From the IMG/VR virus record IMGVR_UViG_3300005613_000011, positions 1 through 64,000 of that record: DNA of 64,000 nucleotides. One strand, written 5' to 3'. The position numbers were made by a program, and so were the translations under genes. This DNA is from a virus. Of this stretch, positions 1,989-39,800 are shown piece after piece; position 1 is the first letter of the stretch, and the number at the start of each line of letters is the position of its first letter. The notes under the pieces are model-generated. The model worked only from the letters and a program-made list of their open reading frames with translations, did no database searches and had not been told where the DNA came from.

Positions 1989-2423
1989 TTATTTTTTCTT
2001 CTTCTTTAATGTGGTATTTGAATAAAATGATGCCATTCCCCTGACTGAAGCATTGTCGCTTTTCATCGCCTTATCTGCACATGCTTTTGAGGGGCCAGAG
2101 AAACCATTTCTTTTGCACCATTCGGTAAATCTGCCTTTCTTTAGTTTCTTGGGCCAACCGTCTGACTCTTTTTTGCTTGCAGTTACAGTGATTTGAGGTT
2201 GTACTTGTTGATCTTCTTTTTTGACTTCTGCTTTTTTGTTTTGATCACGAATATGCTCGATACACCTATCATACTTCTCTTTGTCATTTTTATTCCATTT
2301 GCTTCTTTCTTGAGTCCCCGCTGTAGAGCCTACGCTTGTAATACAAATTGCGTAAGGATTAGAAGGTTTGTCGTATTTGCTTTTTCTTTTTCCTGAGAAT
2401 TTTTCAGTTTGAATAATTTTCAT
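1989..2423 (-). CDS. MKIIQTEKF-leader protein with Cys motifs, basic C-terminus
   Basis: This 144-residue protein begins MKIIQTEKF, identical over nine residues to the protein at 3394-3798, although the rest is unrelated. Residues ~22-55 (NPYAICITSVG...KYDRCIEHIRD) form a Cys-containing module of a type I associate with small environmental-phage proteins. Residues ~95-135 (RFTEWCKRNGFSGPSKACAD...MASFYSNT) form a second Trp/Cys module, followed by a Lys run (TLKKKKK). Function unknown. The spacing of the Cys residues could support metal binding or a disulfide, but no classic zinc finger is visible. It is last in a four-gene operon and is followed by a terminator. Confidence 0.7.
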   Translation of the reverse strand: MKIIQTEKFSGKRKSKYDKPSNPYAICITSVGSTAGTQERSKWNKNDKEKYDRCIEHIRDQNKKAEVKKEDQQVQPQITVTASKKESDGWPKKLKKGRFTEWCKRNGFSGPSKACADKAMKSDNASVRGMASFYSNTTLKKKKK

Positions 2424-2431
2424 TTTATCCC

Positions 2432-2944
2432 TTACAAATGACCGAACCTTCCTGGTTCGTCCTTTCTTAAATCATATTCATAGTCTACTCTAAGATCTTC
2501 TTCAGAGTCATAATCTAGATCTATCTCGTTAATTATATCTTCGTATTCGCCTTCTATAGTTTTTTTAACTTCGTCAGAAAGTTCTCCAATAGGCTTCCCG
2601 TTCACTATTAGTGTCACATTCGTGACTATTCTTTCGTCGTCTCCTTCTGGAGGCCAACCTAGTTGGTCTGGGCCACCATGCATTGAACCAGGGTCACGAT
2701 ATCCAGTACTTTCAAAATCTATTACTAATTCTATTTGGTCTTCACTGTCCAGTCTTATTGGAATAGTACTTACATCTTTGATAATGGCTGATTGAAGTTG
2801 ACCTGACAAGTCTATGTCATTAGTAATGTCAAAGAGGTTTCCTTCTTCTCCTATATTTATTTCAATAGAAAAACTACCTGGAACTTTATTCCATCTCTCT
2901 ACTGCTTCTTTTCTCAAGTACTTTGCTGTTTTAATTATTTTCAT
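2432..2944 (-). CDS. MKIIKTAKY-leader acidic protein, hypothetical
   Basis: This 170-residue protein of unknown function starts MKIIKTAKYLRKEAVERW, the shared leader followed by a short amphipathic helix. The body is acidic and beta-rich (SIEINIGEEG, IELVIDFESTG, VTNVTLIVNGKPIGEL), ending in a very acidic stretch (DLDYDSEEDLRVDYEYD). There is no membrane segment and no recognisable catalytic motif. The purine-rich sequence GAGAGAG lies upstream of the ATG at 2944. It is probably co-transcribed with its leader-sharing neighbours. Confidence 0.7.
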   Translation of the reverse strand: MKIIKTAKYLRKEAVERWNKVPGSFSIEINIGEEGNLFDITNDIDLSGQLQSAIIKDVSTIPIRLDSEDQIELVIDFESTGYRDPGSMHGGPDQLGWPPEGDDERIVTNVTLIVNGKPIGELSDEVKKTIEGEYEDIINEIDLDYDSEEDLRVDYEYDLRKDEPGRFGHL

Positions 2945-3005
2945 GTTTACTCTCTCTGTGGTTAAAGTTAGTTACAATCTACACGCCCCTGCGGGGCGCG
3001 ACCTA

Positions 3006-3389
3006 TTATATAAATCTATTTGTTAATTCTTTTAATAATTTTTGTAATCTTTGTTTATATGCTGCAACAGAGTTAGCAACATCTTCAATATCGCCGTTAT
3101 CTAATTTGATTGACAAGTCATATGTTTCGCCTAGATCCATACCGGCCAAGCGTTGAGCGATATAGTCACCTCCATAATAGTCTTGTCCTTCTGAAACATT
3201 AGATTGTGTTTTTGCTTTATCAATAATTTGCTTTTCTAGTTTGAATATCTCAAAACTATCTTTTCTAATAGATTCTAACTCCTCTGATGGACCTAGTTCC
3301 TTTGATGTCTCTAATAAAAATTTTGTAATCGCATCAAATAAATATACCTCTGCTCGTTTAATGTATTCTGTTGTTTTAATAATTTTCAT
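3006..3389 (-). CDS. MKIIKTTEY-leader helical protein, hypothetical
   Basis: This 127-residue, almost entirely helical protein starts MKIIKTTEYIKRAEVYLFDA. Long charged helices follow (SEELESIRKDSFEIFKLEKQ and VAAYKQRLQKLLKELTNRF), suggesting a coiled coil. The ATG is only 4 nt after the stop of the upstream gene (TAA-AAAA-ATG), the same stop-start spacing as in the mini-gene array at 10.4-11.4 kb, so reinitiation is likely. Function unknown. Confidence 0.7.
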   Translation of the reverse strand: MKIIKTTEYIKRAEVYLFDAITKFLLETSKELGPSEELESIRKDSFEIFKLEKQIIDKAKTQSNVSEGQDYYGGDYIAQRLAGMDLGETYDLSIKLDNGDIEDVANSVAAYKQRLQKLLKELTNRFI

Positions 3390-3393
3390 TTTT

Positions 3394-3798
3394 TTATCCC
3401 ATAGTCACAACCAGGTCATATTTTTCTAATGGTTCACTTATTTGCCCACAACCTGAAGCAATAACAGACCCGTATAACTTGTCGGGCTTACCTCTATTAT
3501 TAGTAAAGTCTATCTCAAATTTCCATTCTTTATAATCGTTTGGAATCTTCCATTTTTCCCTTGTCCATGTCTGTTGAAAACTTGGAGATACACCATATTC
3601 TGTACTTGTAATTGTATAACTTAGACCTAGACTGTCTATAGTCTTGAAAATCTCGTGAACAGGAACCCATGAATCGTCAGAAAAGATCCCTTGAGATATC
3701 GGGTAAAGTATTTTATGTAATTTATTTGACAAACTTTTCTTGGATATATTATCGAATGCGTTTCTTTGTGCGAATTTTTCAGTTTGTATAATTTTCAT
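3394..3798 (-). CDS. MKIIQTEKF-leader protein, hypothetical
   Basis: This 134-residue protein is first of the leader-sharing minus-strand operon. It starts MKIIQTEKFAQRNAFDNISK, while the remaining sequence (a Trp- and Tyr-rich beta domain with SFQQTWTREKWKIP and KEWKFEIDF) matches nothing I recognise. There is no clear Shine-Dalgarno before the ATG. A TATACT box on the minus strand about 20-30 nt upstream could be its promoter. Role unknown. The shared leader suggests the same destination or control as the other MKII proteins. Confidence 0.7.
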   Translation of the reverse strand: MKIIQTEKFAQRNAFDNISKKSLSNKLHKILYPISQGIFSDDSWVPVHEIFKTIDSLGLSYTITSTEYGVSPSFQQTWTREKWKIPNDYKEWKFEIDFTNNRGKPDKLYGSVIASGCGQISEPLEKYDLVVTMG

Positions 3799-3999
3799 AA
3801 TTTAAATTTCTAAAAATAAGTATACAAGTCCTTCTATAAATTAATTCGATTTTTTCCATGTTGTACCTCTTATTTTTTTAAAAAATGCCACAAAAAGCGA
3901 GGAGAGAAGCCACAAGGCCGAAATAAAGGAAGGAAACGAACATATATTTAGAAAAGGGTTTTTCAGCTACAAGTTGTATTTAATGATTAAGGAGCAAAT
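3799..3999. promoter_or_regulatory. Divergent intergenic region
   Basis: These 201 bp separate the minus-strand MKII operon from the plus-strand structural gene at 4000 and should carry promoters for both. A minus-strand TATACT (about 3823-3828) is the clearest -10-like box, and no convincing -35 was seen. The + side has a good Shine-Dalgarno (AAGGAG) 8 nt before the ATG at 4000. Confidence 0.35.
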
Positions 4000-5004
4000 A
4001 TGCCAACAATAACAGCAATAGCCGACTTCAAAGGCACGTTTATACAAGGAACAACAGGAACACTCTTCCTGAAAATAACTGATTTCGACGGGAATCCTAC
4101 AGATCCAGAAGAAATCACAATCACAATACGATTCTGGGACGGAACACTGATAACCTCAACAACTCCAGAAAAAGCGACAGAAGGCTTCTACGTGTACGAT
4201 TGGGAAACAGAAGACGATCAAACTGTCGGAGAATACGAAATAACGTGGGAATTCGAAAGAGACGGAGAAACATATACAGAACTGCAATCAGTAATAGTCG
4301 CAGAGAATGCAGACGATACAAACATGTACTCAGGCAAGGCAATAGCCGTAAGAGAATCTCTGGAAAGATATATAACTTGCGCTCAAAATATCCCTGTCTA
4401 CTTCGAACAGTCAAAACCAACTCACAATAGAAGAACGTATAGATTCACCTTCCCAAGATGGAACCAGGTAACAGGAGTTAAAATATACAGAAATAACAAT
4501 CTTATGGATAGCGGTCTAGAAGTGAATTTCTTCAATGGAGAAGTTGTTTTTGATACCACACAAACTCAATACGACATGATACATGCAGACTACAACTTCA
4601 GGTGGTTTACAGACAGCGAATTGGATGAATATTTGAATAATGCAGTAGCAGATTTTAACTCATATCCACCTCATACAGGATATACGTTGGCAGGTAGCGC
4701 GGAACTTCCTGACAGATATCTCCCGAGTATAATAAGAAAAGCTGCTGTAGATGCAATAAGACATCTTATGATGTGCCTGCAATTCCAGCAGCCTCAACAA
4801 GTTTTCGGCGGTGCTGAAGGTGCAGCAAAAGCATTTGCTAATTTCGAAACACTGAAGAAAAACTATGAGGGAGATTGGGATAAGGTTGTTGACGCAAAAA
4901 AATATGGGCCATACCCTCGAACTATGATCATATCTACACCGGAGTATACATTGCCAGGAGGCCGCAGTCGCTGGTTCAGATATTTGTTTTCTAGTGGCCA
5001 GTAG
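4000..5004 (+). CDS. Phage virion structural protein (Ig-like N-domain)
   Basis: This 334-residue protein has a strong Shine-Dalgarno (AAGGAGCAAAT before ATG). Residues ~1-105 look like an immunoglobulin-type beta sandwich (FKGTFIQGTTGTLFLKITD...VGEYEITWEFERDGETYTE). The C-terminal part has DYNFRWFTDSELDEYLNNAV, a helical stretch IIRKAAVDAIRHLMMCLQFQ and the ending LPGGRSRWFRYLF, a layout I associate with neck or connector-type structural proteins of environmental tailed phages. No enzyme motif is present. It stands alone on the + strand, followed by an AT-rich gap. Precise role inferred only. Confidence 0.6.
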   Translation: MPTITAIADFKGTFIQGTTGTLFLKITDFDGNPTDPEEITITIRFWDGTLITSTTPEKATEGFYVYDWETEDDQTVGEYEITWEFERDGETYTELQSVIVAENADDTNMYSGKAIAVRESLERYITCAQNIPVYFEQSKPTHNRRTYRFTFPRWNQVTGVKIYRNNNLMDSGLEVNFFNGEVVFDTTQTQYDMIHADYNFRWFTDSELDEYLNNAVADFNSYPPHTGYTLAGSAELPDRYLPSIIRKAAVDAIRHLMMCLQFQQPQQVFGGAEGAAKAFANFETLKKNYEGDWDKVVDAKKYGPYPRTMIISTPEYTLPGGRSRWFRYLFSSGQ

Positions 5005-5273
5005 TCCTTATTCTACAATAAGTTACAACAATTTAATTATTATCATTTATTAATATATTAATAATTACTTCTTCGTATATTATGTTTTAGTTAGATCTAT
5101 TTCTTAGTATATTATATAAATTTCCTACTTTACTTCTTCATATATCATATCTTAGATTATGTAAAAACACTTTATTTTAAAATCTTATTATTTTTATTAA
5201 AGGTTTTTATAATTATACCGATATATAAAGTGCAAGTAAACGTTATAACTTATATTGTGGAAAGGAAATCAGA
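5005..5273 (+). repeat. AT-rich gap with a 24-bp imperfect direct repeat
   Basis: No gene is visible. The copies at 5067-5090 and 5132-5155 share the pattern ACTTCTTC.TATAT.AT.T.TTAG (20 of 24 identical). A short palindrome TATTAATATATTAATA lies just before the first copy. The gap directly precedes a free-standing homing endonuclease, so it may be an insertion scar or a regulatory region. Confidence 0.5.
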
Positions 5274-6380
5274 ATGGCACTTAAAGGTCAAATCGTAAGC
5301 GAAGAAACTAAACAAAAGAAAAAAGAAACACAGAAAAAACGACTAATGGAAAAATATGACTGGACCCTTATAGAACCGTACCAGGACGTTGAACTAAAAA
5401 TGTCTTCACGAGGAAGGCAAAAAAAATATATTACATTAAAACAATTTAAACAAAAACTAGAAGGAGACATGTATATACAGGACTTTCAAAAAGAAACATC
5501 TAAAGCTTTAGTTGGTTTCTTTAGTGCTTTTTGTCAAGGTAAAATTAAATTAGAGAAACAAACGTTTATAGATGAATACGAAAAAGGAAAAAGTTTAGTT
5601 GAAATAGCAGAAAAATATAATATTCCAAAAGACTATATTGGATTTCTAAGACAATTATTTGAGATTAAATCCAAAGGAGCGACTTTTCGACATAGAAAAT
5701 TAACAGAAGTACCATTGACACAAAGACAAAGAGAAATTATATATGGATCTATGATGGGTGATGCAAAGAAGTTTGCTCCTGCTTCTGTTGGTTTTGGGCA
5801 TGGACCAAAACAAAAATCATACTTAGAGTGGAAATATGAGGAGTTAAGACCTTTAGCGACAGAACAAGGGATTAAAGAATATTCGTCATATGATAAAAGA
5901 AGTGGTAATTTGAGTTTTTCGTACAGATTTTATACCTATTCGAATACAGAACTAGAAGAAATTAATAAACTGTTTTATTCGGGTCTAGAACAAAAAAAAG
6001 AAGTATCAACTAAAATATTATCTAATTTAACTCCTCTTTCTATCGCCGTATGGTTTATGGATGATGGCAAGACAGACTGGAATCATCGATCTTTGAAAAA
6101 AAGACCAAATAGGGCAACAGAAACTCACTTTCTTTGTGCTGATTCTTTTTCTTTTGATTCTTGCGAAAATATAAAAGGGTGGTTTTTTAAGAGATATAAT
6201 ATAAAATGCAGAATGAAATCTAATGGTTTTCGTAAAAGAAGCACTATTATAAAATATAGAATAGTTATTGAGCATGAATCAAATGAAAATTTCATTAATT
6301 TAATTCGTCCTTATATTTTACCTTTATTTTATTATAAGACCAATTATCAAGCATACCTAAAATGGAGAAGAAATGATTAG
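5274..6380 (+). CDS. LAGLIDADG homing endonuclease with NUMOD3-like N-terminus
   Basis: This 368-residue protein makes site-specific double-strand breaks that promote spread of its own gene. The two diagnostic helices are visible: YGSMMGDA (157-164) and AVWFMDDGKTD (258-268), each ending in the acidic metal-binding residue, as in the LAGLIDADG type-2 family. Before them lie VSEETKQKKKETQKKRL (8-24), resembling the NUMOD3 DNA-binding repeat, and FIDEYEKGKSLVEIAEKYNI (98-117), resembling a helix-turn-helix. The start is backed by AAAGGA 8 nt upstream. No intron or intein borders are evident, so it appears free-standing. It overlaps the next gene by 8 nt. Confidence 0.88.
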   Translation: MALKGQIVSEETKQKKKETQKKRLMEKYDWTLIEPYQDVELKMSSRGRQKKYITLKQFKQKLEGDMYIQDFQKETSKALVGFFSAFCQGKIKLEKQTFIDEYEKGKSLVEIAEKYNIPKDYIGFLRQLFEIKSKGATFRHRKLTEVPLTQRQREIIYGSMMGDAKKFAPASVGFGHGPKQKSYLEWKYEELRPLATEQGIKEYSSYDKRSGNLSFSYRFYTYSNTELEEINKLFYSGLEQKKEVSTKILSNLTPLSIAVWFMDDGKTDWNHRSLKKRPNRATETHFLCADSFSFDSCENIKGWFFKRYNIKCRMKSNGFRKRSTIIKYRIVIEHESNENFINLIRPYILPLFYYKTNYQAYLKWRRND

Positions 6381-6669
6381 AGCAGACCTAATGACATTCA
6401 CTAAACCAGTTTATTATTTTAATGACGGGAAAGAGCCTGACGCAGAAGAGATAAGAGACGTAGCGGAGCACCTTGAAAAGTCACTAAATAAAGTAGCAGA
6501 CGCTGTTGAAAAACTCAAGATAGACAAAAATTGGGAGATGGAATACAATCATGGTGAAATATCCTTATTTAACGATCAAATAGAAGATGAAAATGAGTTT
6601 AACGAGTATCTTGAAAAAATAAATGTCGATAAAGATCTATTTTATCTGATAGATTTAGATGAAGAATAA
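6373..6669 (+). CDS. Small acidic coiled-coil protein, hypothetical
   Basis: This 98-residue protein overlaps the end of the homing endonuclease by 8 nt and has a Shine-Dalgarno (GGAGAAG) inside that gene. Residues 24-60 (EIRDVAEHLEKSLNKVADAVEKLKIDKNW) form a regular heptad-like helix, and the C-terminal third is very acidic. Function unknown. It may be an original phage gene whose upstream flank was invaded by the endonuclease. Confidence 0.65.
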   Translation: MIRADLMTFTKPVYYFNDGKEPDAEEIRDVAEHLEKSLNKVADAVEKLKIDKNWEMEYNHGEISLFNDQIEDENEFNEYLEKINVDKDLFYLIDLDEE

Positions 6670-6763
6670 TTTTTACGGAAAATAGATTACCAAGAATACT
6701 TAAAATAGCGATGTAAATAAATATTTTTGATATTTGTTATTTTCTGCGTATCTTAATGCTATA

Positions 6764-8542: not shown

Positions 8543-9808
8543 TGTCAATTACCCCTCCCACAAGGGGAGGGGCTTGTTCAGCCGGATAAACTGGGAACAA
8601 TAGGCTGATTGACAACAGCCCTATCTGGATAGCCTGTAGCGTCCAGATATTTGAGACAAATATTACGACTAGCATTGAGGTCAGCATTAAGTTGAAAACC
8701 ACATTTCTTACAACTAAACAGAGATTGACAAACCCTGTTTGCTCTCTTAATATGACCGCATCTGCTACATCTCTGACTAGTATACCTTGCATCAACATAA
8801 ACAATATTAATGCCTTTGGATTCAGCTTTGTACTTAATTATCCACTCCAACTGGAAGAAGTTCCAACGATTAACTTCTTTACGTTGGGCTTTTCTCCAAT
8901 TGTTAGTACGCTTACGAATACCAGTCAAATCTTCAAACACCAAAGTGTCTCCGCTTTGAAGTTTGCTAACAATCTGCTTAGAGATGCAATGATTGGCATC
9001 TTTCCTAAACCGTCTCTCCTTACCTCTAACTTTGGTAAGGTGTCTTTTAGCAGACCTTGTTTTCTTAGATTGAAGTTGACTTCTCAATCGTTGATATCTA
9101 TCAGAAACTTGTTTAACTTTTCCACCACCAAAGAATCTATTGTCAGAGGTTACAGCAAGTTTTTTAACTCCTCTATCACAGCCAACAAGATTCCCAGTTG
9201 GTTCTATGTCAGAAACTTCTTTTTCAAAAACAACATGGAGAAAAACTCTTCCTTTGCTATCAATAAGCAAATTAGCAGAAGTGTGTTTCCAATCCAAATA
9301 ACGTTCAAAGTACTCAGGAATATTAAGGCTAAACTTCTTTCTACCATCAATAGTAAGAATAGAAACTTTTCTACTTTCAAGCCAAAGTGTATAGGAGTTC
9401 TTATCAAGCCTGACACTACATTGTTTGGATTGAGGGCAAGAAATATGTTGTTTCTTCTTTCTAAGTGCTTTAACAGATTTAAGGGATTCAGTAGCTTTCA
9501 TTCTAGCAGATATAGCCAGTTGAGAAGGCAGGTATTGTCTTGTTGTTTGATAGGTTTTGTGGTGAAGAGACACACCATTAATATCGAATGGATTAAAACC
9601 TATTTGACAGACAAAATTGTAAGCTTTTGTATAGGCTTCAATAGTTGGTTTGATATCTTGTGTTGAGATATCAAGTCTAAGTTTAGCTGTCCGAATGAGT
9701 TTCATATATTACTATTATCGGATAGTTCTAAAGATTCCTTTAATAATTTTTTCAAATAGGAGAAAGTAGCAATTCCTCCTCTACCGCAAGGGTAGAGGTT
9801 TCCTTGCT
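8543..9808 (-). mobile_element. IS200/IS605-type element carrying only tnpB
   Basis: The element is oriented on the minus strand. Its right end (8543-8580) contains a perfect hairpin (CCCCTCC...GGAGGGG), and its left end (about 9705-9808) contains a second hairpin (CCTCTACC...GGTAGAGG). A deleted copy at 26888-27088 has the same outer sequences, which defines the borders to within a few bases: shared sequence runs from TGTCAATT on one side to GCTACAAAGA on the other. There is no tnpA, so movement would need a transposase in trans. In this family the transcript of the right end normally serves as the guide (omega) RNA of TnpB. No target duplication is expected or seen. Confidence 0.8.
8578..9705 (-). 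CDS. tnpB: TnpB RNA-guided endonuclease (IS605 family)
   Basis: This 375-residue protein is full length for TnpB. The RuvC residues are all present: Asp177 in GCDRGVKKLAV, Glu258 in LVFEDLTGIR, Asp342 in NADLNASRNI. A four-Cys zinc ribbon lies between the last two (C313-x2-C316, C332-x2-C335). TnpB cuts DNA next to a short motif, guided by RNA from the element's right end, favouring element retention. The N-terminus MKLIRTAKL happens to resemble the phage's MKIIKTAKY leader. The gene looks intact, so nuclease activity is plausible. The flanking hairpins and the deleted sister copy support a mobile origin. Confidence 0.93.
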   Translation of the reverse strand: MKLIRTAKLRLDISTQDIKPTIEAYTKAYNFVCQIGFNPFDINGVSLHHKTYQTTRQYLPSQLAISARMKATESLKSVKALRKKKQHISCPQSKQCSVRLDKNSYTLWLESRKVSILTIDGRKKFSLNIPEYFERYLDWKHTSANLLIDSKGRVFLHVVFEKEVSDIEPTGNLVGCDRGVKKLAVTSDNRFFGGGKVKQVSDRYQRLRSQLQSKKTRSAKRHLTKVRGKERRFRKDANHCISKQIVSKLQSGDTLVFEDLTGIRKRTNNWRKAQRKEVNRWNFFQLEWIIKYKAESKGINIVYVDARYTSQRCSRCGHIKRANRVCQSLFSCKKCGFQLNADLNASRNICLKYLDATGYPDRAVVNQPIVPSLSG

Positions 9809-9860
9809 ACAAAGATTATGAACTTTTTATTAAAAAGAACATTACATTGCACAGGTTTGA

Positions 9861-10377: not shown

Positions 10378-10438
10378 AAAGATGAAAATACTACAGAAAT
10401 AAACTGTTCTGGTTCTAGGTCTTTGTCTAGGTAACAAA

Positions 10439-10651
10439 ATGAAAATAATACAAAAAACAATATGTGTGAGCAAGTCTTGGTCTAGTTCTTGGTCTACGTC
10501 TAGTTTTAGTTCTAGTTCTGGTTTTTGGTCTAGATCTTGGTCTTTGTCTTGGTTTAGTTCTAGTTCTACGTCTAGTTCTAGTTCTTGGCCTTATTCTTGG
10601 TCTTTTTCTTTGTCTTTTTCTAGTTCTTTGCCTAGTTCTAGGTTTAGGTGA
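10439..10651 (+). CDS. Ser-X repeat mini-protein, unit 1
   Basis: This 70-residue product begins MKIIQKTICVSKSW, followed by alternating Ser and mostly W, S, L, T, R, F at the X position (for example SWSTSSFSSSSG). No acidic residue occurs in the repeat. It lacks a Shine-Dalgarno, and the ATG is 4 nt after the stop that closes the unit 0 hexamer frame. No homology recognised. An amphipathic beta or low-complexity structure is plausible. Confidence 0.55.
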   Translation: MKIIQKTICVSKSWSSSWSTSSFSSSSGFWSRSWSLSWFSSSSTSSSSSWPYSWSFSLSFSSSLPSSRFR

Positions 10652-10655
10652 TAAA

Positions 10656-10838
10656 ATGAAAATGATACAAAAAATAATAAGAATAAATAGGTCTAATTCT
10701 AGGTCTTGGTCTACGTTTAGGTCTTGGTCTAAATCTAGTTCTTTTTCTTGGTCTTTGTCTTGGTCTTTGTCTTTGTCTTATTCTACGTCTAGTTCTTGGT
10801 CTTTGTCTACGTCTAGTTCTAGGGCTTGGTCTAGGTAA
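10656..10838 (+). CDS. Ser-X repeat mini-protein, unit 2
   Basis: This 60-residue product begins MKMIQKIIRINRSNSRSW, followed by Ser-X repeats (SWSLSWSLSLSYSTSSSW). It is spaced 4 nt from the previous TGA (TGA-TAAA-ATG). The leader differs from unit 3 by one residue over the first ten or so, while the repeat order differs freely, so repeats are shuffled or slip more than leaders. Confidence 0.55.
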   Translation: MKMIQKIIRINRSNSRSWSTFRSWSKSSSFSWSLSWSLSLSYSTSSSWSLSTSSSRAWSR

Positions 10839-10844
10839 CAAATT

Positions 10845-11027
10845 ATGAAAATGATACAAAAAATAATAAGAACAAATAGGTCTTATTTTTACTCTTGGTC
10901 TAGTTCTTGGTCTAGTTCTTGGTCTAGTTCTTGGTCTAGTTCTTGGTCTAGTTCTTGGTCTAGTTCTTATTCTAGTTCTTTGTCTTATTCTAGGGCTTGG
11001 TCTACGTCTACGTCTTGGTCTTGGTAA
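10845..11027 (+). CDS. Ser-X repeat mini-protein, unit 3
   Basis: This 60-residue product begins MKMIQKIIRTNRSYFYSW. It contains the most regular tract of the array: a 12-bp unit TCTTGGTCTAGT repeated about six times, giving SWSS repeats, a sign of recent slippage expansion. The ATG is 6 nt after the stop of unit 2. Confidence 0.55.
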   Translation: MKMIQKIIRTNRSYFYSWSSSWSSSWSSSWSSSWSSSWSSSYSSSLSYSRAWSTSTSWSW

Positions 11028-11031
11028 CAAA

Positions 11032-11190
11032 ATGAAAATGATACAAAAAATAATATGCGCGAGGAAATCTAGTTCTTTGTCTTGGTCTAGTTCTTTGTCT
11101 TTGTCTAGTTCTTTGTCTTGGCCTTATTCTAGGTCTTATTCTTGGTCTAATTCTTGGTCTTTTTCTTGGTTCAGTTCTAGGTTTTGGTGA
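11032..11190 (+). CDS. Ser-X repeat mini-protein, unit 4
   Basis: This 52-residue product begins MKMIQKIICARKSSSLSW and ends SWFSSRFW. It is the shortest open unit. It contains single-base changes of the invariant Ser codon (TCT to CCT, and TTC near the end), showing point divergence on top of repeat turnover. The ATG is 4 nt after the stop of unit 3. Confidence 0.55.
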   Translation: MKMIQKIICARKSSSLSWSSSLSLSSSLSWPYSRSYSWSNSWSFSWFSSRFW

Positions 11191-11194
11191 CAAA

Positions 11195-11416
11195 ATGAAA
11201 ATGATACAAAAAATAATAAGAACAAATAGATCTTGGTCTTGGTCTTGGTCTTGGTCTAGGTCTTGGTCTAGTTCTAGTTCTCGTTCTTGGTCTACGTCTT
11301 GGTCTAGGGCTAATTCTGGGTCTTCTAGTTCTTATTCTTGGTCTTGGTTTTTGTCTACGTCTTTTTCTAGTTCTTGGTCTTGGGCTTGGTCTAGTTCTAC
11401 GTCTTGGTCTTGGTAA
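11195..11416 (+). CDS. Ser-X repeat mini-protein, unit 5
   Basis: This 73-residue product begins MKMIQKIIRTNRSWSWSW and carries the longest Ser-X tract, ending STSWSW. Its stop (TAA) lies 4 nt before the ATG of the ordinary leader-bearing gene at 11421, tying the array to that gene as one transcription unit. Confidence 0.55.
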   Translation: MKMIQKIIRTNRSWSWSWSWSRSWSSSSSRSWSTSWSRANSGSSSSYSWSWFLSTSFSSSWSWAWSSSTSWSW

Positions 11417-11420
11417 CAAA

Positions 11421-11642
11421 ATGAAAATAATACAAAAAATAATAAGAATGAACACTAAAGAAGATTTGCAAATTGAATTAGACTTTTTTGTTAAGAAAAT
11501 CAGGGAAACAGGTTTTGATATTCGTGTCAGTTGGACTGACGAATACAGTAAAATGCAGAGCGTGTTTGGACATGTTAATTCCCACGTAGAAAAAAGATAC
11601 AAGTTTAAACTAGACGAAGAAGAAACCGATACAATAGATTAA
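11421..11642 (+). CDS. MKIIQKIIR-leader globular protein after the array
   Basis: This 73-residue protein begins MKIIQKIIRMN, the array leader, but continues as a normal mixed protein (TKEDLQIELDFFVKKIRETG, then WTDEYSKMQSVFGHV) with an acidic end. It shows that the leader is a real coding N-terminus which has been joined to unrelated bodies. Start spacing is TAA-CAAA-ATG. Function unknown. Confidence 0.65.
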   Translation: MKIIQKIIRMNTKEDLQIELDFFVKKIRETGFDIRVSWTDEYSKMQSVFGHVNSHVEKRYKFKLDEEETDTID

Positions 11643-12267: not shown

Positions 12268-12471
12268 ATGAAAATATTGTTCAGGATAAAGACACTGATA
12301 GACAGTTGCAGTCATGCGAATTCTAGTCTTTTGAGCTACATGAGTGTTAGGTCTAATACTATAGACGGGGACTTTTCTTGTTTGACTAAGGCATCATTTG
12401 ACGGTTCATTTTCTTTTTGTTGGTCTTATATTAGTTTTAGGACTTGTTCTTTGTGGCAGTGGAATAAATGA
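12268..12471 (+). CDS. Diverged Ser-rich, MKI-leader mini-protein
   Basis: This 67-residue frame begins MKILFRIKTLIDS (DNA start ATGAAAATA as in the array), followed by a Ser-rich body in which Ser often alternates with other residues (SFSFCWSYISFRTCSLW). There is no Shine-Dalgarno. It looks like a diverged relative of the Ser-X units 0.9 kb upstream. Confidence 0.4.
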   Translation: MKILFRIKTLIDSCSHANSSLLSYMSVRSNTIDGDFSCLTKASFDGSFSFCWSYISFRTCSLWQWNK

Positions 12472-12805: not shown

Positions 12806-13009
12806 ATGTTTATGTTTATAAATCAGAACTCTTCAAGAAGTTTGTGTTGGAAATCTCGCGTTTGTACTTCAACCCATAACATAAGTAAATACGGCTACTC
12901 TTTCTCTTGGGAGTTTTGGATGAGGAGTTCTTATATAAATTCACATGGACCTGTTTTTGATACTTCTTTGTCATGGTCTAGTGTCTCTGTTTCTTCAAAA
13001 CACAATTGA
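12806..13009 (+). CDS. Diverged Ser-rich mini-protein
   Basis: This 67-residue frame ends TSLSWSSVSVSSKHN, resembling the Ser-X units. An MKILFKFSLQ leader begins at 12762 in a different frame 44 nt upstream and stops after 19 residues, so this unit appears to have lost its leader by a frameshift. Coding status uncertain. Confidence 0.35.
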   Translation: MFMFINQNSSRSLCWKSRVCTSTHNISKYGYSFSWEFWMRSSYINSHGPVFDTSLSWSSVSVSSKHN

Positions 13010-21245: not shown

Positions 21246-21431
21246 ATGAACTGGTACAAATTCTCTACATACTACGACTACTTAAGGAAATATCCTGTGA
21301 CTACAGAAAATATCAGACAACTAGTAGAAGAAGGGGAGTTACCAGAAGGTTATTATTTCGTAAAAAATAGTGGTACTTGGTCTGTCTATTCCCCAGAAGG
21401 AACACTAGTTTCAATGAACTACCCAAGTTAA
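21246..21431 (+). CDS. Small MNWYK-leader protein
   Basis: This 61-residue protein begins MNWYKFSTYYDYLRKYP, continues with VTTENIRQLVEEGELPEGYY and ends in a small beta part (GTWSVYSPEGTLVSMN). TATACT lies immediately before the ATG, so the mRNA may have almost no leader. Its stop (TAA) overlaps the stop of the convergent tnpB on a TTAA palindrome, so the last residues may come from the inserted element. Function unknown. Confidence 0.55.
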   Translation: MNWYKFSTYYDYLRKYPVTTENIRQLVEEGELPEGYYFVKNSGTWSVYSPEGTLVSMNYPS

Positions 21432-22702
21432 AGCACTGGGGTTTCCTGACTCTTTCTTCTATTACTAGAAGTTTTTTGATAAAAACTTACTCTAATATAT
21501 TTTGATTCTAACGAATCAAATATACTAGTAGCAGAGGTTTTCATCTCCTCAAGCTTAAATTCCCTGCGTTCCACAGGTACATATTTATTTAATCCTTCAG
21601 TTTCTATACATCTAGCAGATTTTAAATCTCTATCTTCTTTAAATCCACAACTACAAGAATAAACTCTTTGACTTAAAGGAATTTTATTTTTCTTGTTACA
21701 ACTAGGACAAAGTTGAGTAGAAGGAAAGAATTTATCTACTAATATAGGTGTATGAGATTTGTTTTTCAAGTCTCTAATTATCCTACCTATACTAGTATTT
21801 TGAATTTTCTTTCCATGATTACTACTCTTCCAACTATGTATGGATTCATCTTGAAAGATTATATTCTTATAATTATTTACTAATTTAGAAACAATCTTGT
21901 TTCTAATATTATTTTTAATATTAGTGAGTCTAATATATTCTCTTTGTCGTTTGATTTGATCTTTCAACTTGTTATTAGATCGTCTTCTGTTTTTCTTCAT
22001 TATCTTTCTATCTAAACGTTTGAGGCGTTTAGATATTGGTACTTCGTATCTTATTTTAGTTCCATTAGAAAGAGTTAGTTGTGTTTCACAACCGAAGTCT
22101 ATTCCTATTGATTCTCCAATAAATTGTTTATCTTCTTTCTCTTGATAAGTAGTGATGTGTATGAAAAAGTCATTAGCTTTTTTAATTAAAGTGGCATTTG
22201 CTATTTCACAATCTTTAGGTATTTGTTGTAGGCCGTAAACTTTAATAGCTCTTTTTATTCCTTGAATCTTTATACTGTTAGAAACCTTAATGATTTTATA
22301 GGTCTTATTATATTGTTTAAGAGGAATAGAACTTAGTTGTGAGATAAACTTTAGTTTACCTACTCGTTGACCTTTCTTCTTCTTTTCTGAAAGAGATAAG
22401 ATATTGAAGTATAGTCTTTCTCTTATCCCTTGTTTCATCTGTGAAGAGATCTTATCTAATCTTCTTATTTTATAATGATCTTTTACTTTTACAGGTACTT
22501 CTTTTAATTTAGTATTATACTCGAAAGGATCGTTTTCTAGTATATCATTGTATAACCATTTACCTTGTATAAATAATGAGTTAAGATGATTGAGAGTAGA
22601 GATAGAAAGTTTAGACTTATCAATTTTAGTTTGATAAACTTTACAAGTTTGAGACTTATGTCTTTTTGTAGTTTCTAGTCGTTTTGTATATCTTCTACTC
22701 AT
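21428..22702 (-). CDS. tnpB: TnpB RNA-guided endonuclease, second unrelated copy
   Basis: This 424-residue protein has RuvC residues Asp202 (SIGIDFGCETQLTLS), Glu286 (IIFQDESIHSW) and Asp359 (DRDLKSAR), and zinc-ribbon Cys332, Cys335, Cys350, Cys352. It is longer than the first TnpB, has AT-rich codons and little identity outside the motifs, so it is a separate insertion. No tnpA is nearby. The upstream region shares TTAAAGGAATC with the first element. Downstream (minus sense) a CCCA/TGGG hairpin spans the stop codon, where the guide-RNA end would be. Exact element borders cannot be fixed without a second copy. Confidence 0.9.
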   Translation of the reverse strand: MSRRYTKRLETTKRHKSQTCKVYQTKIDKSKLSISTLNHLNSLFIQGKWLYNDILENDPFEYNTKLKEVPVKVKDHYKIRRLDKISSQMKQGIRERLYFNILSLSEKKKKGQRVGKLKFISQLSSIPLKQYNKTYKIIKVSNSIKIQGIKRAIKVYGLQQIPKDCEIANATLIKKANDFFIHITTYQEKEDKQFIGESIGIDFGCETQLTLSNGTKIRYEVPISKRLKRLDRKIMKKNRRRSNNKLKDQIKRQREYIRLTNIKNNIRNKIVSKLVNNYKNIIFQDESIHSWKSSNHGKKIQNTSIGRIIRDLKNKSHTPILVDKFFPSTQLCPSCNKKNKIPLSQRVYSCSCGFKEDRDLKSARCIETEGLNKYVPVERREFKLEEMKTSATSIFDSLESKYIRVSFYQKTSSNRRKSQETPVL

Positions 22703-24216: not shown

Positions 24217-26934
24217 ATGTTTAAGAATTTTAGAGATAGAATAAAAAAATGGGCTAAGAAATATATATTGAGAAGAGCACAAAATGGAGACGTTGAACCT
24301 TCTGTAATATATGATTACGATATTGAGGAACCCGTTGAAATCACTCCTGATTTCGCTCAGAATTTCGTATCGCAGGTTAGACAATATTTTGAAAACATAA
24401 ATCCTGCCGATCCTTTAAATTCTCTTCTTCCTCCTTTTCCTGAAAAATGGAAGTCTTCTCAACTGTCTCGGTCTTTTATTATGGTAGCGAACCAGGTATT
24501 AGATGAAAAAGGTTTAGATGAAAGAAATAAGTATGAAATTATAAATACGCTTCTTGGAACAAGACAATTAATAGAATCTTCTTTCACAGATGAAGTATCT
24601 AATTTTATACGAACATCTATTGACCCTGAAAATCCAGATATTAGTTCACTACCGAATGTTAATAAAGAGTGGCTTGAACCTGATACTATAGGTCAATTTC
24701 AGTCAATAGCAAGAGAAATACTTTCATCTGAACCATATAATATGAACGAGATGGAGGCAGATTCTATTATTACTTCCATGATGGAACCAAGAGTTGAAGG
24801 AAAAGAAAGATTTACTGGTTTACCGGAAGATCTTTTAAGACGTATCGTTATTAAAAATGTTAATGAAAAAACAATACTTGACGGATTAGCCAGTCTTGAC
24901 AGGAGACTTGGCAAAGGCACATATACTCTTGACAGTAAGAATCCTGGAAGCGACAGATATCCTGTAATGTGGGTTTCTCCTCAGTCTCAGCAGTTCTACG
25001 ATACATTTGTTTCGAAAGATCCTCAGAAGAGAGAAGATTTCTTGGCGTATTGTAGAAAAAGTAAGAAAGATGGTGGATCGGGAATGGTTAATAGTATCAT
25101 TAATTATCTTGGTCTAAATAAATCTTTAACGGAGATGCAAAAAGGTGCTGTAGAAAATGACATAGGAAGTTTAATATGGGAATTTCTTGCAACTAAAACT
25201 AGAATTCCTTTTGGTAGAACCGAAAACTTTGATCCGAATACAGGCGAATCAGTTTGCATTAAAGATTACCTAAGTAATTTTTTTGGTAAAAATCCTCAAT
25301 ATCTGCCAAAAGGTATAAAAGTTGAGGTAGTCAAATCAGGAAAAAGAACAGATTATTTATTTAATGGTGTCAACCTTTGTAAATCAGCTGATACACCTCA
25401 AAAATGGGCGATTAGGGACAAGTTATCTCAGTCTGTTTCCTCTTTGATAGCTGCCAAAAACCCAGATATCTTAGATTACGTTCTTAATACTATGGCTGTT
25501 CGTATTGGCAATTATGTTAAAGAAAAGAGAAAAAGGGAAATACCAGAAGCCAGCATTGATGTTCCAGGGAAAGAAGGTAAACCTATGGGAGGAGGTCTGT
25601 CTATAGAGCGAGAAAAAAAACGTAGAGATGTTGCAAAACAAAAAATAGATAAAACACAATTTGGCGAAGAAGATATAGAAAACGCTGTAACTAATAGAAA
25701 GTTAGGAATTGTAATAAAAGAAATTGGTGATGAAAATATATTCCAAAATATATATGACAATTTTGGAAGGGAAACAATTACTTTCTTAAGTTCCGAAATA
25801 GAAAACGGAGTTATAACTAACCCTTCTGCTGTTGTTAAATCCAGTAAAGTTATAGACACATTACAAGCCTTCATGTTATTGTGCTCAAGCCAATTTGATT
25901 CATTTTTATCTAATTCTAATTTCAATAATGATGATGGTAAATTACACTTTGACATGAAAGATGGTAGAGTTAATAAATGGAACGAAACGGTTAATAAAGA
26001 GCGAATGTTTAATACGTTTGCAAATATTGCTGAAGCAAAGAAAATAATTGCCAACATGAATGCAAGATTCAGTAAAGATCCAACTAATGTTGCACAAAAC
26101 ACTGCAAAACAACTTCGAGTAAAAGGTATAACAGAAGAAACTGATCCTATCGTATTTACAATGCTTCAAGACGAAAGCTTTATAAGAAGAAGTATGCTTG
26201 CTGACCCCTCATTAATTGATAATTATTACAAAGTTTCTACTAAAGAAGTGAAAAGAAAGATTAAAGATAAACTTGACAAAAAGAAAATCAGAAAAACTCC
26301 TATAGAAATAAACAAAATGACGTATGAAGCGCTTGGCAAAACTCTCAATGAATCCATGCAGACAATGCCTGGTACTTTTATCCCATATGCAGTAAGTATT
26401 ATTGCACAAAAGGAGAATCAAATAAGACAAGATTTTGCTAACGAACCAGAAATAATGAAATCGGAATTACAGAAATTACGAAAAATGCAGCAAATTTTCG
26501 GATTAGCATTTCCTGTTCACGCTGAGTTTAAATTAGATGACGCAAAATGGGCCGAAAGGATAAGAGATGCCGAGAAAGGAATAAAGAGATATCCTTTCCC
26601 AGGTCATGTTAATAAGACTTTAACACGTATGCTCAATCTTCCAGGAGGAAAAACTATAAGTCACAGAGATGGTTATAGAATGATGGTTGGACTGGAACCT
26701 ATCCCTCAGAATATATTAAGAGAGAGCAGTCAAATGTCTTACTCATTGTATAAGTATGGTAATTCAATTCTAGAAAATATGATTAGATCCTATGATATCC
26801 TTGACAAATTTGGTTTAGGTCAAGAGATAATGGAGACGATAACACAGATAGGAGACGATTATAGAAACAGGATATTATCAGTATCAGTGTCAATTACCCC
26901 TCCCACAAGGGGAGGGGCTTGTTCAACCGGATAA
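24217..26934 (+). CDS. Large helical protein of unknown function, 3' end altered by an IS remnant
   Basis: The ATG at 24217 (GGAG, 7 nt upstream) is preferred over an upstream TTG and gives 905 residues. The N-terminus is basic (MFKNFRDRIKKWAKKYILRR), and the rest is a long alternation of charged helices (for example ENAVTNRKLGIVIKEIGDEN and FRPF-free polar stretches) without transmembrane or enzyme motifs I recognise. It precedes the virion genes and could be an internal virion or DNA-associated protein. The last ~14 residues (SITPPTRGGACSTG) are encoded by the deleted TnpB element. Removing that element would give an ending near RILSVSEYENILRM overlapping the next start (inference). Confidence 0.6.
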   Translation: MFKNFRDRIKKWAKKYILRRAQNGDVEPSVIYDYDIEEPVEITPDFAQNFVSQVRQYFENINPADPLNSLLPPFPEKWKSSQLSRSFIMVANQVLDEKGLDERNKYEIINTLLGTRQLIESSFTDEVSNFIRTSIDPENPDISSLPNVNKEWLEPDTIGQFQSIAREILSSEPYNMNEMEADSIITSMMEPRVEGKERFTGLPEDLLRRIVIKNVNEKTILDGLASLDRRLGKGTYTLDSKNPGSDRYPVMWVSPQSQQFYDTFVSKDPQKREDFLAYCRKSKKDGGSGMVNSIINYLGLNKSLTEMQKGAVENDIGSLIWEFLATKTRIPFGRTENFDPNTGESVCIKDYLSNFFGKNPQYLPKGIKVEVVKSGKRTDYLFNGVNLCKSADTPQKWAIRDKLSQSVSSLIAAKNPDILDYVLNTMAVRIGNYVKEKRKREIPEASIDVPGKEGKPMGGGLSIEREKKRRDVAKQKIDKTQFGEEDIENAVTNRKLGIVIKEIGDENIFQNIYDNFGRETITFLSSEIENGVITNPSAVVKSSKVIDTLQAFMLLCSSQFDSFLSNSNFNNDDGKLHFDMKDGRVNKWNETVNKERMFNTFANIAEAKKIIANMNARFSKDPTNVAQNTAKQLRVKGITEETDPIVFTMLQDESFIRRSMLADPSLIDNYYKVSTKEVKRKIKDKLDKKKIRKTPIEINKMTYEALGKTLNESMQTMPGTFIPYAVSIIAQKENQIRQDFANEPEIMKSELQKLRKMQQIFGLAFPVHAEFKLDDAKWAERIRDAEKGIKRYPFPGHVNKTLTRMLNLPGGKTISHRDGYRMMVGLEPIPQNILRESSQMSYSLYKYGNSILENMIRSYDILDKFGLGQEIMETITQIGDDYRNRILSVSVSITPPTRGGACSTG

Positions 26935-27088
26935 ACTGGGAACAATAGGCTGATTGACAACAGCCCTATCTGGATAGCCTGTAGCGTCCAGATATTTGAG
27001 ACATATATTACTATTATCGGATAGTTCTAAAGATTTCTTTAATAATTTTTTCAAATAGGAGAGAGTAGAGGTTTCCTTGCTACAAAGA
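26888..27088 (-). mobile_element. Internally deleted derivative of the TnpB element
   Basis: It matches the outer parts of the 8543-9808 element. The first ~116 bp equal the right end including the CCCCTCC/GGAGGGG hairpin, then a jump at a CA microhomology skips about 1,046 bp (bases 8659-9704 of the full copy) to the left end. A second deletion of about 26 bp between GTAG repeats removed the left-end hairpin. It is therefore a dead, MITE-like copy. It is inserted at the 3' end of the 24217 gene and directly before the ATG at 27091. Confidence 0.88.
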
Positions 27089-27090
27089 GT

Positions 27091-27273
27091 ATGAAAATAT
27101 ACTGCGTATGTAAGTGTGGTGAACATTCTAGTGATGAAGCTACGTTAGAAATAAACTTCAGAAGCTCTACTATATATTTTGTTTGCCCAAAGTGCAACAA
27201 AGAGTATCAAATGAAGATGAAGCCAGTGGCTGAGCCGCTTCCTCGCATCAATACTATGAGATCAGCTAACTGA
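27091..27273 (+). CDS. Small zinc-ribbon protein
   Basis: This 60-residue protein begins MKIYCVCKCGEHSSDEATLE, with paired Cys (CKCG) followed 27 residues later by CPKC, a compact zinc ribbon. The ATG immediately follows the IS remnant, so upstream control may have been changed by the insertion. Likely a small binding protein. Function unknown. Confidence 0.6.
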   Translation: MKIYCVCKCGEHSSDEATLEINFRSSTIYFVCPKCNKEYQMKMKPVAEPLPRINTMRSAN

Positions 27274-36847: not shown

Positions 36848-39800
36848 ATGGCAGATTTCGATCCGACAATCAAGAAGGTTCTTCATCCCTCTGCTCATGG
36901 TGCTCGTAGATGCTGTTTAGAAACTGAAGGTAATGCATATAAGGAAGGCGAAGTCGAACCGTGGGGCGTTATACCTTTATCTGCAAAAGCTAAGGGCATA
37001 CGTTATTCTTTCTCTATTACGCCTGTAGTTAATCACAGCGATACTATTCCATATCAAAAAAGACTTGATACAACCTCTTCAAGTGAATCGTCTGAAGATG
37101 GTGGTATTTGGCCTTCTGATGTCCCTACCATACAAACAACTAATGGGTCAAGAGGATACGGTGTAGTTCCTGGTAGTTTTAGTAATGCATTTTTGCCAGC
37201 AATAACATACGAAGAAGAGGGGTCTGGAGTAACTTATACAAAGTTTGACGATCATACCGATGGAGGAGAAATATATAGTATAAGAATGTGGACAACTGAT
37301 GTTGGAGATACTTATATATCAGAGAATAAAAGAAACGAACTAACGGGGGTAGAGTCACCAGCACAAAGATATAAAATTAATTCAGAAGGTAGTCGTGAAT
37401 ATAATTGGGAGGAAAGACCGAGAGACGAAAATAAGACTACATCATATTCTGACGTATATAAAGAACAACCTAACAATATCAGGTGGTGGTTTGGGTTAGA
37501 TGGTATTGAGCCTAACAGTGGTGATAATATACTGTGGGGCGAAGTAGTACAAGGATGTCGTGATTTAGAAGAAGAGATAAATGGAGATGAATTAGAAGAC
37601 GCTACTACCGATCTTTTAATCCAGATCATTGCATCTCCCGATGTTTCTGCTGACGATATTTCAGAAGCTAACACTGAACTAGGCGATAATTTTGAAGAGA
37701 GAAAAGCGGCTATTGACAGATACATGGAGGTTATTGATAATTCTGAGTCTACACTAAAATCAACTGAAACTGTTACTGAATCTACTCCTGCGATTGGAGG
37801 TGTTGATTATTCCAGAGTTGGAATAGCGACTGTGGCCGAACAAGTCGCTACATCATTAGAAAGCTGTTTGAATATTCCCAATGCAATTATTGACAATGAT
37901 ACACAAACGACTGTAAACAATTTTATAAGGAGTATCAGAAATAAAGCCAGCAGTCTTAAAAATTCCAGAATAAAAAATAAAAAGATTTCCATTAAGCAAG
38001 ACAAGAATATTGATGGATTTTTTGTATCATATATAAACGATCATGATTATATTGCTAAAAACGCAGACGAAGACGAAGAATGTGAAGAAACTTTTGATTG
38101 GGGTTTCCGTCATCCGGTTCCTAAAGTCTTTTATGGAGACTCCGACATAGACGATTGTCCTAGACTGCAAATATCCGAGAAGAATACGAAAGGAGGCGTT
38201 CCTGTAGTTGATGAGGGTGTTGAATTGCCCCCTCAAAGGGATTTTTATTCTAAAGATGGGGAAGCAATAGAGATTTATTCTAAAGATGTTCTGGGGAACG
38301 ATTTTCAATCATATGATTTTTTGGAAGGGACCGAATATACAAGTGGTACATGGAAGATAAGAAATTGTCATTTTAAACCTAATAGTGAGAATAAAGGGCT
38401 TGTCGTAACCGAGTGGATTAAAACTACAAAAGAAGGAGATGAGCAAAAACAAGAGACTTATAGGGAAACCACTCTTATTAATAACAATACTGGAGGGGAA
38501 TCTAGAACATTTTATACGTATATAGGGAAAGACGGGAAATCTCAAAACAGTTGGCCTAAAGGAATGACTGTTTCTGACGAAGAATTTGTGGACAAAACGG
38601 CTGATGCGAAGTTCGTAATACAATTAATAAAAAGAAGAAGAGGAATTGGTTCTAGTAGTTCGTCTAGTAGCTCCAGCTCTAGTATTAGTTCTTCTAGCAG
38701 TTCGTCTATTAGTTCTTCTAGCAGTTCGTCTATTAGTTCTTCTAGCAGTTCGTCTATTAGTTCTTCTAGCAGTTCGTCTAGTATTTCTTCTAGCAGTTCG
38801 TCTAGTATTTCTTCTAGCAGTTCGTCTATTATTTCTTCTAGCAGTTCGTCTATTATTTCTTCTAGCAGTTCGTCTATTATTTCTTCTAGCAGTTCGTCTA
38901 TTAGTTCTTCTAGCAGTTCGTCTATTAGTTCTTCTAGTAGTTCGTCTAGTATTTCTTCTAGTAGTTCGTCTATTAGTTCGTCTAGCAGTTCTTCTAGCAG
39001 TTCGTCTATTAGTTCTTCTAGCAGTTCTTCTAGCAGTTTGTCTAGTAGTTCTGCTAGTTCTATGAGTTCTTCTATGAGTTCTTCTATGAGTTCTTCTAGT
39101 TCAGCTAGTCCTCCTACGTTTATTCTTGCTGCGAATAATCCTTTTTTAAGAAAAAAGATATTACATATCGATCCTTGTGATGAAAACCTTCTTATTTTCC
39201 ATACAGAAGTAACCAATCCTTACGATAAAGATTGGTTTAAGAAGTGTATTTATGGTAGAGGAAATATCTTAGATAATGATACTATTTCCAAGATGTTACT
39301 ATTAGATATCAAGGCGATAGATTGTGAAGATGCTGATGATATAAGTTTTGAAAGAGGAAAAGACGATTGTCCTTGTCCTTGTGTTACTGACAATCATGAA
39401 CAAACGGATTGGGTTTTGGATTTATATGTTTATATTGAGTCAGGAAAATATAAGTTGTTGTTTTTCAGGGGTGTTTATGAATATGACGGGATGGAAGACG
39501 TTCCCCTCGTAGAATCTGTTGTTTTTGATGATAATCTTGTTACTGAGGAAATGGCTGGTCAAGCATATGATTTTGGGGATGATTTAGAATATTTAGAAGA
39601 CGCATGTTGGGGCTACAGGTTTTTGGACGATACTTCTAAAATTTTATCGAGCGGCCATTCTGGGACATGCACACTATATCCTTGTCTTGAAAATTTTGAA
39701 GGACTAAACGTAACTAAATTTAAGGAATCTCTCAATAATGACAATCGGGACCATAATGCATTATTTGAAGATAAAAAAAATTATGCTTATTACTATTCTA

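Follow-up and report, generated by a model that had tools for sequence, protein, structure and literature searches.

We propose that the array of tandem mini-genes at positions 10382 to 11416 of the IMG/VR virus record IMGVR_UViG_3300005613_000011 is a divergent member of a widespread family of very small tailed-phage genes that appears not to have been described. The window, by which we mean the whole stretch of DNA analysed, is the first 64 kb of this 113,266-base viral contig, on which phage structural genes such as a minor tail protein are present. Each gene of the family joins a short conserved leader peptide to a tract in which serine alternates with a variable residue X, here written (Ser-X)n. 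The reading that we favour, and hold to be probable, is that these small genes are kept as translated units with composition-bound Ser-X tracts, to which a disordered, composition-driven binder is added as the weaker part of the proposal. As the sequence comparisons suggest, selection would keep the frame open, the leader conserved, serine in alternate positions, the composition at X narrow and the tract at ~50-60 amino acids (aa), without holding to a single exact sequence.

A first-pass annotation of the window had described six tandem units with a near-constant leader and TCTNNN tracts read as Ser-X. Five intact tandem open reading frames (ORFs) of 70, 60, 60, 52 and 73 aa lie on the plus strand at 10439-11416, and all five carry that leader and such a tract, whereas the unit at 10382 proved to be a remnant. 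An intact unit consists of a leader of 12 codons that hardly varies (MKMIQKIIRTNR or closely similar, of the MKMIQKIIR type), 20-30 TCTNNN hexamers encoding Ser-X, and a TAA or TGA stop. The array and the gene that follows it are laid out below; L011 is a second phage contig, to which we return.

10382-10434, plus strand: broken first unit; in sequence and translation MKILQK is followed by TAA, so that the leader ends after six codons, and four TCTNNN hexamers (10408-10431) are out of frame with that ATG.
10439-10651, plus strand: unit ORF of 70 aa; leader 10439-10474, Ser-X tract 10475-10648, stop TGA; alternation p 3e-13.
10656-10838, plus strand: unit ORF of 60 aa; leader 10656-10691, tract 10692-10835, its second half near-identical to L011, stop TAA; alternation p 2e-10.
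10845-11027, plus strand: unit ORF of 60 aa; leader 10845-10880, identical to L011, tract 10881-11024 including a (TCTTGGTCTAGT)n run, stop TAA; alternation p 2e-9.
11032-11190, plus strand: unit ORF of 52 aa; leader 11032-11067, tract 11068-11187, stop TGA; alternation p 1e-6.
11195-11416, plus strand: unit ORF of 73 aa; leader 11195-11230, tract 11231-11413 with one 3-nucleotide (nt) phase shift, stop TAA.
11421-11642, plus strand: the leader occurs here for the seventh time (MKIIQKIIR) and runs in frame into an ordinary protein of 73 aa that has no Pfam or PHROG match.

The alternation values come from a test for TCT-like codons at alternate codons in the 232 ORFs of 40-130 aa on the 113-kb contig. 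Only four array units fell below p<2e-3 (1e-6 to 3e-13), and the fifth, at 11195, is probably absent from that list because the phase shift splits its tract. Stop-to-start gaps in the array measure 4, 6, 4, 4 and 4 nt, in agreement with the earlier description of mostly 4 nt and once 6. The same annotation had denied the array a Shine-Dalgarno (SD) sequence, which is true for canonical AGGAGG, but GGTAAC or GGTGAC is kept in the spacer just upstream of the starts and SD-like sites are found in many relatives. It had also placed the leader at the head of a normal protein at 11421, where we find it in frame; the true start of this gene may be the ATG at 11448 (MNTKED...). At the 118 X positions of the window the codons are TGG (40), AGT (27), TTG (13), ACG (10), TAT (7) and AGG (7), with TTT and AAT also present, such that Trp makes up 34% of X and NGG less than half. 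X had been listed as W, S, L, T, R, Y, F and N and never acidic; no acidic X occurs in the window, but K and G must be added to the list and serine is sometimes replaced by F, P or A, and in relatives E stands at ~2% of X. Several loci elsewhere on the contig were considered as decayed relatives of the array and rejected (window 12268-12471 and 12806-13009, contig 75741-75980, 102337 and 9818; alternation p ~0.2-0.5, not significant). The first three of these, Ser/Trp-rich ORFs of 67-79 aa, two with MKMII or MKIL starts, resemble degenerate array units. A start of the form MKII[KQ]T (MKIIQTEKF, MKIIKTAKY and similar), only loosely like the array leader, is found on four adjacent genes at window 1989-3798 (minus strand) and on a distant gene at contig 73361-73558.

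DNA scans of the IMG/VR viral collection, with the tract only and then with seeds for each serine codon, place this array within a far larger family, in counts that are minimum numbers among the matches listed (~120 per scan) and not prevalence. The contigs are fragments, and near-duplicates were removed only in part. At least 245 units in at least 161 loci passed one common filter. Leader plus (Ser-X)n ORFs occur in 75-90 loci among the matches listed in the tract-only scan, alone or in rows of as many as about ten, and the scans for other serine codons (TCA/TCG/TCC and AGC/AGT) gave the same architecture, a leader of 9-12 aa (MNAAVLRTGFDR-type, for example) followed by a (Ser-X)n tract of ~54 aa, often in tandem, in a protein of ~65 aa with ~25 Ser-X pairs. 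A control scan with Thr, Ala and Pro codons gave 2/88 qualifying matches against 63/117 and 24/119 for serine, as shares among the matches listed and not as rates. Versions with Ala or Thr in place of serine, again with W, R and G mixed at X, are rare and came from this control scan (L647 and L703; ARAWAGAWAG... and TRTWTRTG...).

The first-pass annotation knew of no described counterpart, and we have found none. Pfam, PHROGs and PADLOC profiles gave no match for 14 family members, a PDB sequence search with one window unit gave none at E<=1, and no paper matching leader plus Ser-X arrays was found in the literature. Isolate phages yielded no clear relative at the sensitivity used, low-complexity filtering being a limit on this search; blastn matches were 90 nt of Synechococcus phage S-SCSM1 and a stretch of a Halomontanus plasmid without annotated gene. 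A single terminase type for the array phages was rejected, with Terminase_6C in 10 of 32 records, TerL_ATPase in 2 and Terminase_3 in none. Two contigs of metagenome-assembled genomes, L203 (Patescibacteria) and L207 (Thaumarchaeota), carry W/R/G arrays; either may be a phage contig that was binned into a cellular genome, and they could point to hosts. Patescibacteria as a general host was dismissed, as only 2 of 380 genomes matched, one of them merely a pure microsatellite.

The hexamer of the main family joins a serine codon to NGG, and all six serine codons are found, one per tract. W, R and G stand at X in proportions of 0.319/0.315/0.315 in TCG tracts and 0.312/0.301/0.282 in AGC tracts, and the thirds hold with Arg encoded mostly by AGG or mostly by CGG, which points to the amino acid, and not the base, as what counts. 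The seeds excluded C at hexamer position 4 for several consecutive hexamers, which leaves CGG-rich tracts under-sampled and may make Arg look too scarce in GC-rich phages. The order of X shows autocorrelation at chance for lags 1-12, with longer X-words recurring somewhat above expectation, and in each type represented by several tracts the median tract length is 49-58 aa. TCT tracts with non-NGG X were sought and none was seen among the matches listed.

That the family consists of real translated genes is, on comparison of these loci, very probable. The leader motif MNxAxLRxGF[DE] recurs in 24 loci with synonymous divergence (pS) of 0.76 vs non-synonymous divergence (pN) of 0.34, and the motif KQK[WYF] in 16 loci with pS 0.78 vs pN 0.33; each spans four serine-codon types, and in both the synonymous sites are saturated while the residues are conserved. 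In-frame stops are avoided at X, where AAG, GAG and CAG number 84, 65 and 34 vs 3 for TAG, mostly the terminal stop, and TGA is likewise depleted. SD-like sites lie upstream of 92 of 245 units vs 53 expected, the arrays are mostly on the same strand as neighbouring genes, and the upstream stop is often 1-6 nt away. The neighbours are diverse early and replication genes, and a fixed partner gene was rejected (130 neighbours match 143 PHROG families), as was fusion of an array to a folded domain in L331, where a longer leader with read-through was unconvincing. These observations support the earlier proposal that the locus is dedicated to encoding peptides, with leaders that stay constant and little space between a stop and the next start. 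Loss of leaders and frames with retention of the hexamer DNA had been named as the pattern that would refute it, and ~160 loci present the opposite, leader and frame persisting even where the serine codon changes.

The tract could instead work as DNA or RNA, with translation incidental, as a GGTC-like hexamer array serving as a binding decoy, a recombination hot spot, a decoy resembling an NGG protospacer adjacent motif, or mRNA structure. Such a role would fit the TCG tracts, in which five of the six hexamer positions, synonymous ones included, are fixed at 97-99% and the one remaining base, that before GG, looks random (G 34%, T 33%, C 24%, A 9%), and also the constancy of NGG at X in the main family. 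It is unlikely, however, given that AGY tracts have leaders in common with TCN tracts though neither of the first two serine bases matches, that in-frame stops are avoided and that Thr, Ala and Pro versions are nearly absent among the matches listed. Hairpins in the RNA were rejected: TCTNGG can self-pair, but folding energies are ordinary in comparison with column-permuted controls and the window folds weakly. Alternatively, the genes may act through translation itself, their NGG codons holding or exhausting ribosomes or tRNAs by peptidyl-tRNA drop-off or slow decoding, with the peptide a by-product. NGG does stand at X whichever of the three amino acids results, and both drop-off and suppressive 5′ NGG codons are known from bacteria (PMC12204400). 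The effect described there, however, belongs to the first few codons, whereas the tracts start after 9-12 leader codons; a translation effect also leaves serine alternation in all six codons and the near-thirds of W:R:G unexplained, and the window subtype has NGG at under half of X. These two, the NGG translation effect and the nucleic-acid-level function, are the main rivals to a selected peptide, and both are weakened by the six-codon serine result; we consider the translation effect improbable as well.

How the tracts change over time bears on two further alternatives. Between phages with 97-99% identical flanks orthologous tracts are nearly the same, their changes being of whole hexamers and, most often, of the base before GG, and of the 38 gaps seen when tracts are aligned, 34 are multiples of six and two more are multiples of three. 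The tracts had been called freely varying and the locus possibly phase-variable; neither description is supported, as orthologous tracts are nearly unchanged and X composition is constrained in the main family, and changes mostly by whole hexamers do not shift the frame. In one pair of contigs, L022 and L028, flanks are 99.9% identical and one tract differs completely, the differences lying in a patch that reaches from the first unit into the second. Hypermutation in place was rejected as its cause because one recombination patch explains the difference; recombination replaces units whole or by halves. A hypervariable or phase-variable cassette, such as a diversity-generating retroelement or contingency locus, could draw on this pair and on the random-looking base before GG. 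Reverse transcriptase (PF00078), however, was found in none of 40 viral records that carry arrays (the window contig among them, and many of them fragments), TCA tracts keep their A at 98-99% with no adenine-specific variation, and near-identical orthologous tracts, whole-hexamer change and recombination patches together argue against hypermutation and phase variation, leaving such a cassette extremely improbable. A neutral or selfish hexamer microsatellite, functionless and in frame by chance, would account for the repeat dynamics seen in hexamer indels and in the 12-nt run of one window unit, and pure SWSWSW-type microsatellites do exist in many genomes; it is nonetheless highly improbable in view of the conserved leaders, stop avoidance, serine specificity, constant tract length and absence of local autocorrelation of the variable base N.

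For translated genes under selection on composition, we propose instead that gain and loss of whole hexamers homogenises every position by concerted evolution, which would yield one serine codon per tract and X as NGG. Trp has only the codon TGG, so GG would be forced under such homogenisation, and selection for a mixture at X would preserve variation at the single base by which TGG (Trp), AGG/CGG (Arg) and GGG (Gly) differ from one another. Units would be exchanged between phages as cassettes, and in the subtype to which the window belongs the set at X would have become W, S, L, T, Y, R and F.

Movement between phages is illustrated by L011, a 39-kb phage and the one other contig matched when, as the first-pass annotation had suggested, the leader with TCTNNN tracts was sought in other phage contigs, a search that the broader scans extended to many loci of the same architecture. 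L011 holds two units between nicotinamide phosphoribosyltransferase-like and NUDIX genes and a third unit elsewhere. It has ~190 nt of near-identical tract and leader in common with the window, with an 18-nt in-frame insertion in L011, while similarity outside the array is limited to short stretches linked to mobile elements. A shared piece of array in unrelated flanks indicates that units move between phages, and its presence in an independent contig excludes an assembly artefact. Both contigs follow the family in the serine lock, tract length, leader and Trp share, the window units having a 9-12 aa leader, one serine codon per tract, an open frame and a tract of 40-60 aa. Of W/R/G in thirds as NGG the window keeps only the Trp third, and because the remaining X codons differ we set the two contigs apart as a subtype that has diverged, with W, S, L, T, Y, R and F at X. 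In L011 the two adjacent units interrupt a set of genes resembling nicotinamide adenine dinucleotide (NAD) salvage at 3706-6719 (nicotinamide phosphoribosyltransferase-like, NUDIX and, by eye, NAD synthetase-like).

Several known systems resemble the arrays in part. T4-type internal-protein loci are tandem small phage genes in which a conserved capsid-targeting leader of ~10 aa precedes variable bodies. The arrays are alike in their tandem small genes with constant leader and variable remainder, but differ in the regularity of the Ser-X remainder, in their early and replication neighbours and in the leader, which heads no other protein in nearly all loci; in the DNA searched here it stands on a non-repeat ORF only at window 11421 and L271:397. 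Simple-sequence contingency loci are alike in having a short tandem repeat inside a small ORF, but changes of a six-base unit cannot switch frame and none was seen doing so. The dipeptide-repeat proteins of C9orf72 (poly-GR, poly-PR) share with the arrays a hexamer read as a two-residue repeat, here Ser-X from (Ser codon + NGG)n, and an Arg-containing low-complexity chain. The C9orf72 products are disease expansions of near-pure repeat translated without a normal start, whereas the phage arrays have start codons, conserved leaders, stops, bounded length and, in place of a near-invariant second residue, W, R and G mixed at random. In the tryptophan-repeat region of Nanog the number of Trp residues in a simple repeat sets self-association (PMC5446312); the arrays too are simple repeats with regularly spaced Trp, but Nanog is a eukaryotic transcription factor whose domain has Trp at every fifth residue, and no homology is claimed. 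A survey of prokaryotic and phage low-complexity regions found aromatics and Arg heavily under-represented (PMC6821194), which makes the array composition unusual, for although the arrays are likewise short and Ser/Gly-containing, Trp and Arg each occupy about a third of X.

We give even odds to the view that the product is a statistically defined copolymer, with serine at alternate positions and a fixed mix at X (usually Trp/Arg/Gly) in no set order, regenerated from different serine codons, traded as leader-plus-tract cassettes between unrelated phages and supplying disordered stickers early in infection. Made alongside early and replication genes, the peptide would be intrinsically disordered and multivalent, with Trp (usually also Arg) as stickers and Ser/Gly as spacers. 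More tentatively, it may be a composition-driven binder that self-associates, or that coats either nucleic acid or some factor of the host, for example the ribosome. An AlphaFold single-sequence model of the unit at 11195-11416 is unstructured (predicted local distance difference test score 50). Some points weigh against this interpretation as a whole. No alignment went into the AlphaFold model, and any sequence of low complexity would be expected to score poorly. Conservation is higher at synonymous positions (the third base of serine, the last base of X) than at the non-synonymous base before GG, and the W/R/G alphabet could be partly a by-product of NGG; the proposed concerted evolution would account for the conservation of synonymous sites. 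The window subtype breaks the W/R/G rule, and a scan for its X grammar gave no further example. All of the evidence is at the level of sequence.

Other features of these contigs were noted. A HEARO RNA (Rfam RF02033, 103 bits) lies at L008:11074-11303 (contig 75074-75303) and is followed by a short IscB-like N-terminal fragment, read from translation; further copies of the HEARO 3′ hairpin (GCCCACGACTTTAGTCGTGGG) without apparent nuclease gene lie at contig ~75451-75502, 105176-105218 and 106547-106584 and at L011:9349-9391. A TnpB-like gene at 8578-9705 (minus strand) lies with its flanks at window 8543-9822, and 26888-27095 repeats both ends (97-98% identity) without the gene, as would a deleted, non-autonomous copy of this element. 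A second TnpB-like ORF (21428-22702) was recognised by eye, as was a putative LAGLIDADG homing endonuclease-like ORF of 368 aa (5274-6380). Low-complexity SSSSSSSI and TSTSTS tracts at window 38683-39099 and 42331-42393 are 24- and 12-bp tandem repeats within a 2604-aa protein (36848-44662).

If our reading is right, a common class of phage gene has been overlooked because each member is short, of low complexity and without a match to an annotated family. The family would then provide a natural system in which selection targets composition and pattern rather than sequence, with hundreds of alleles available for comparison, and it would bear on the evolution of disordered peptides, on the birth of genes out of repeats and on early phage proteins of a new kind.
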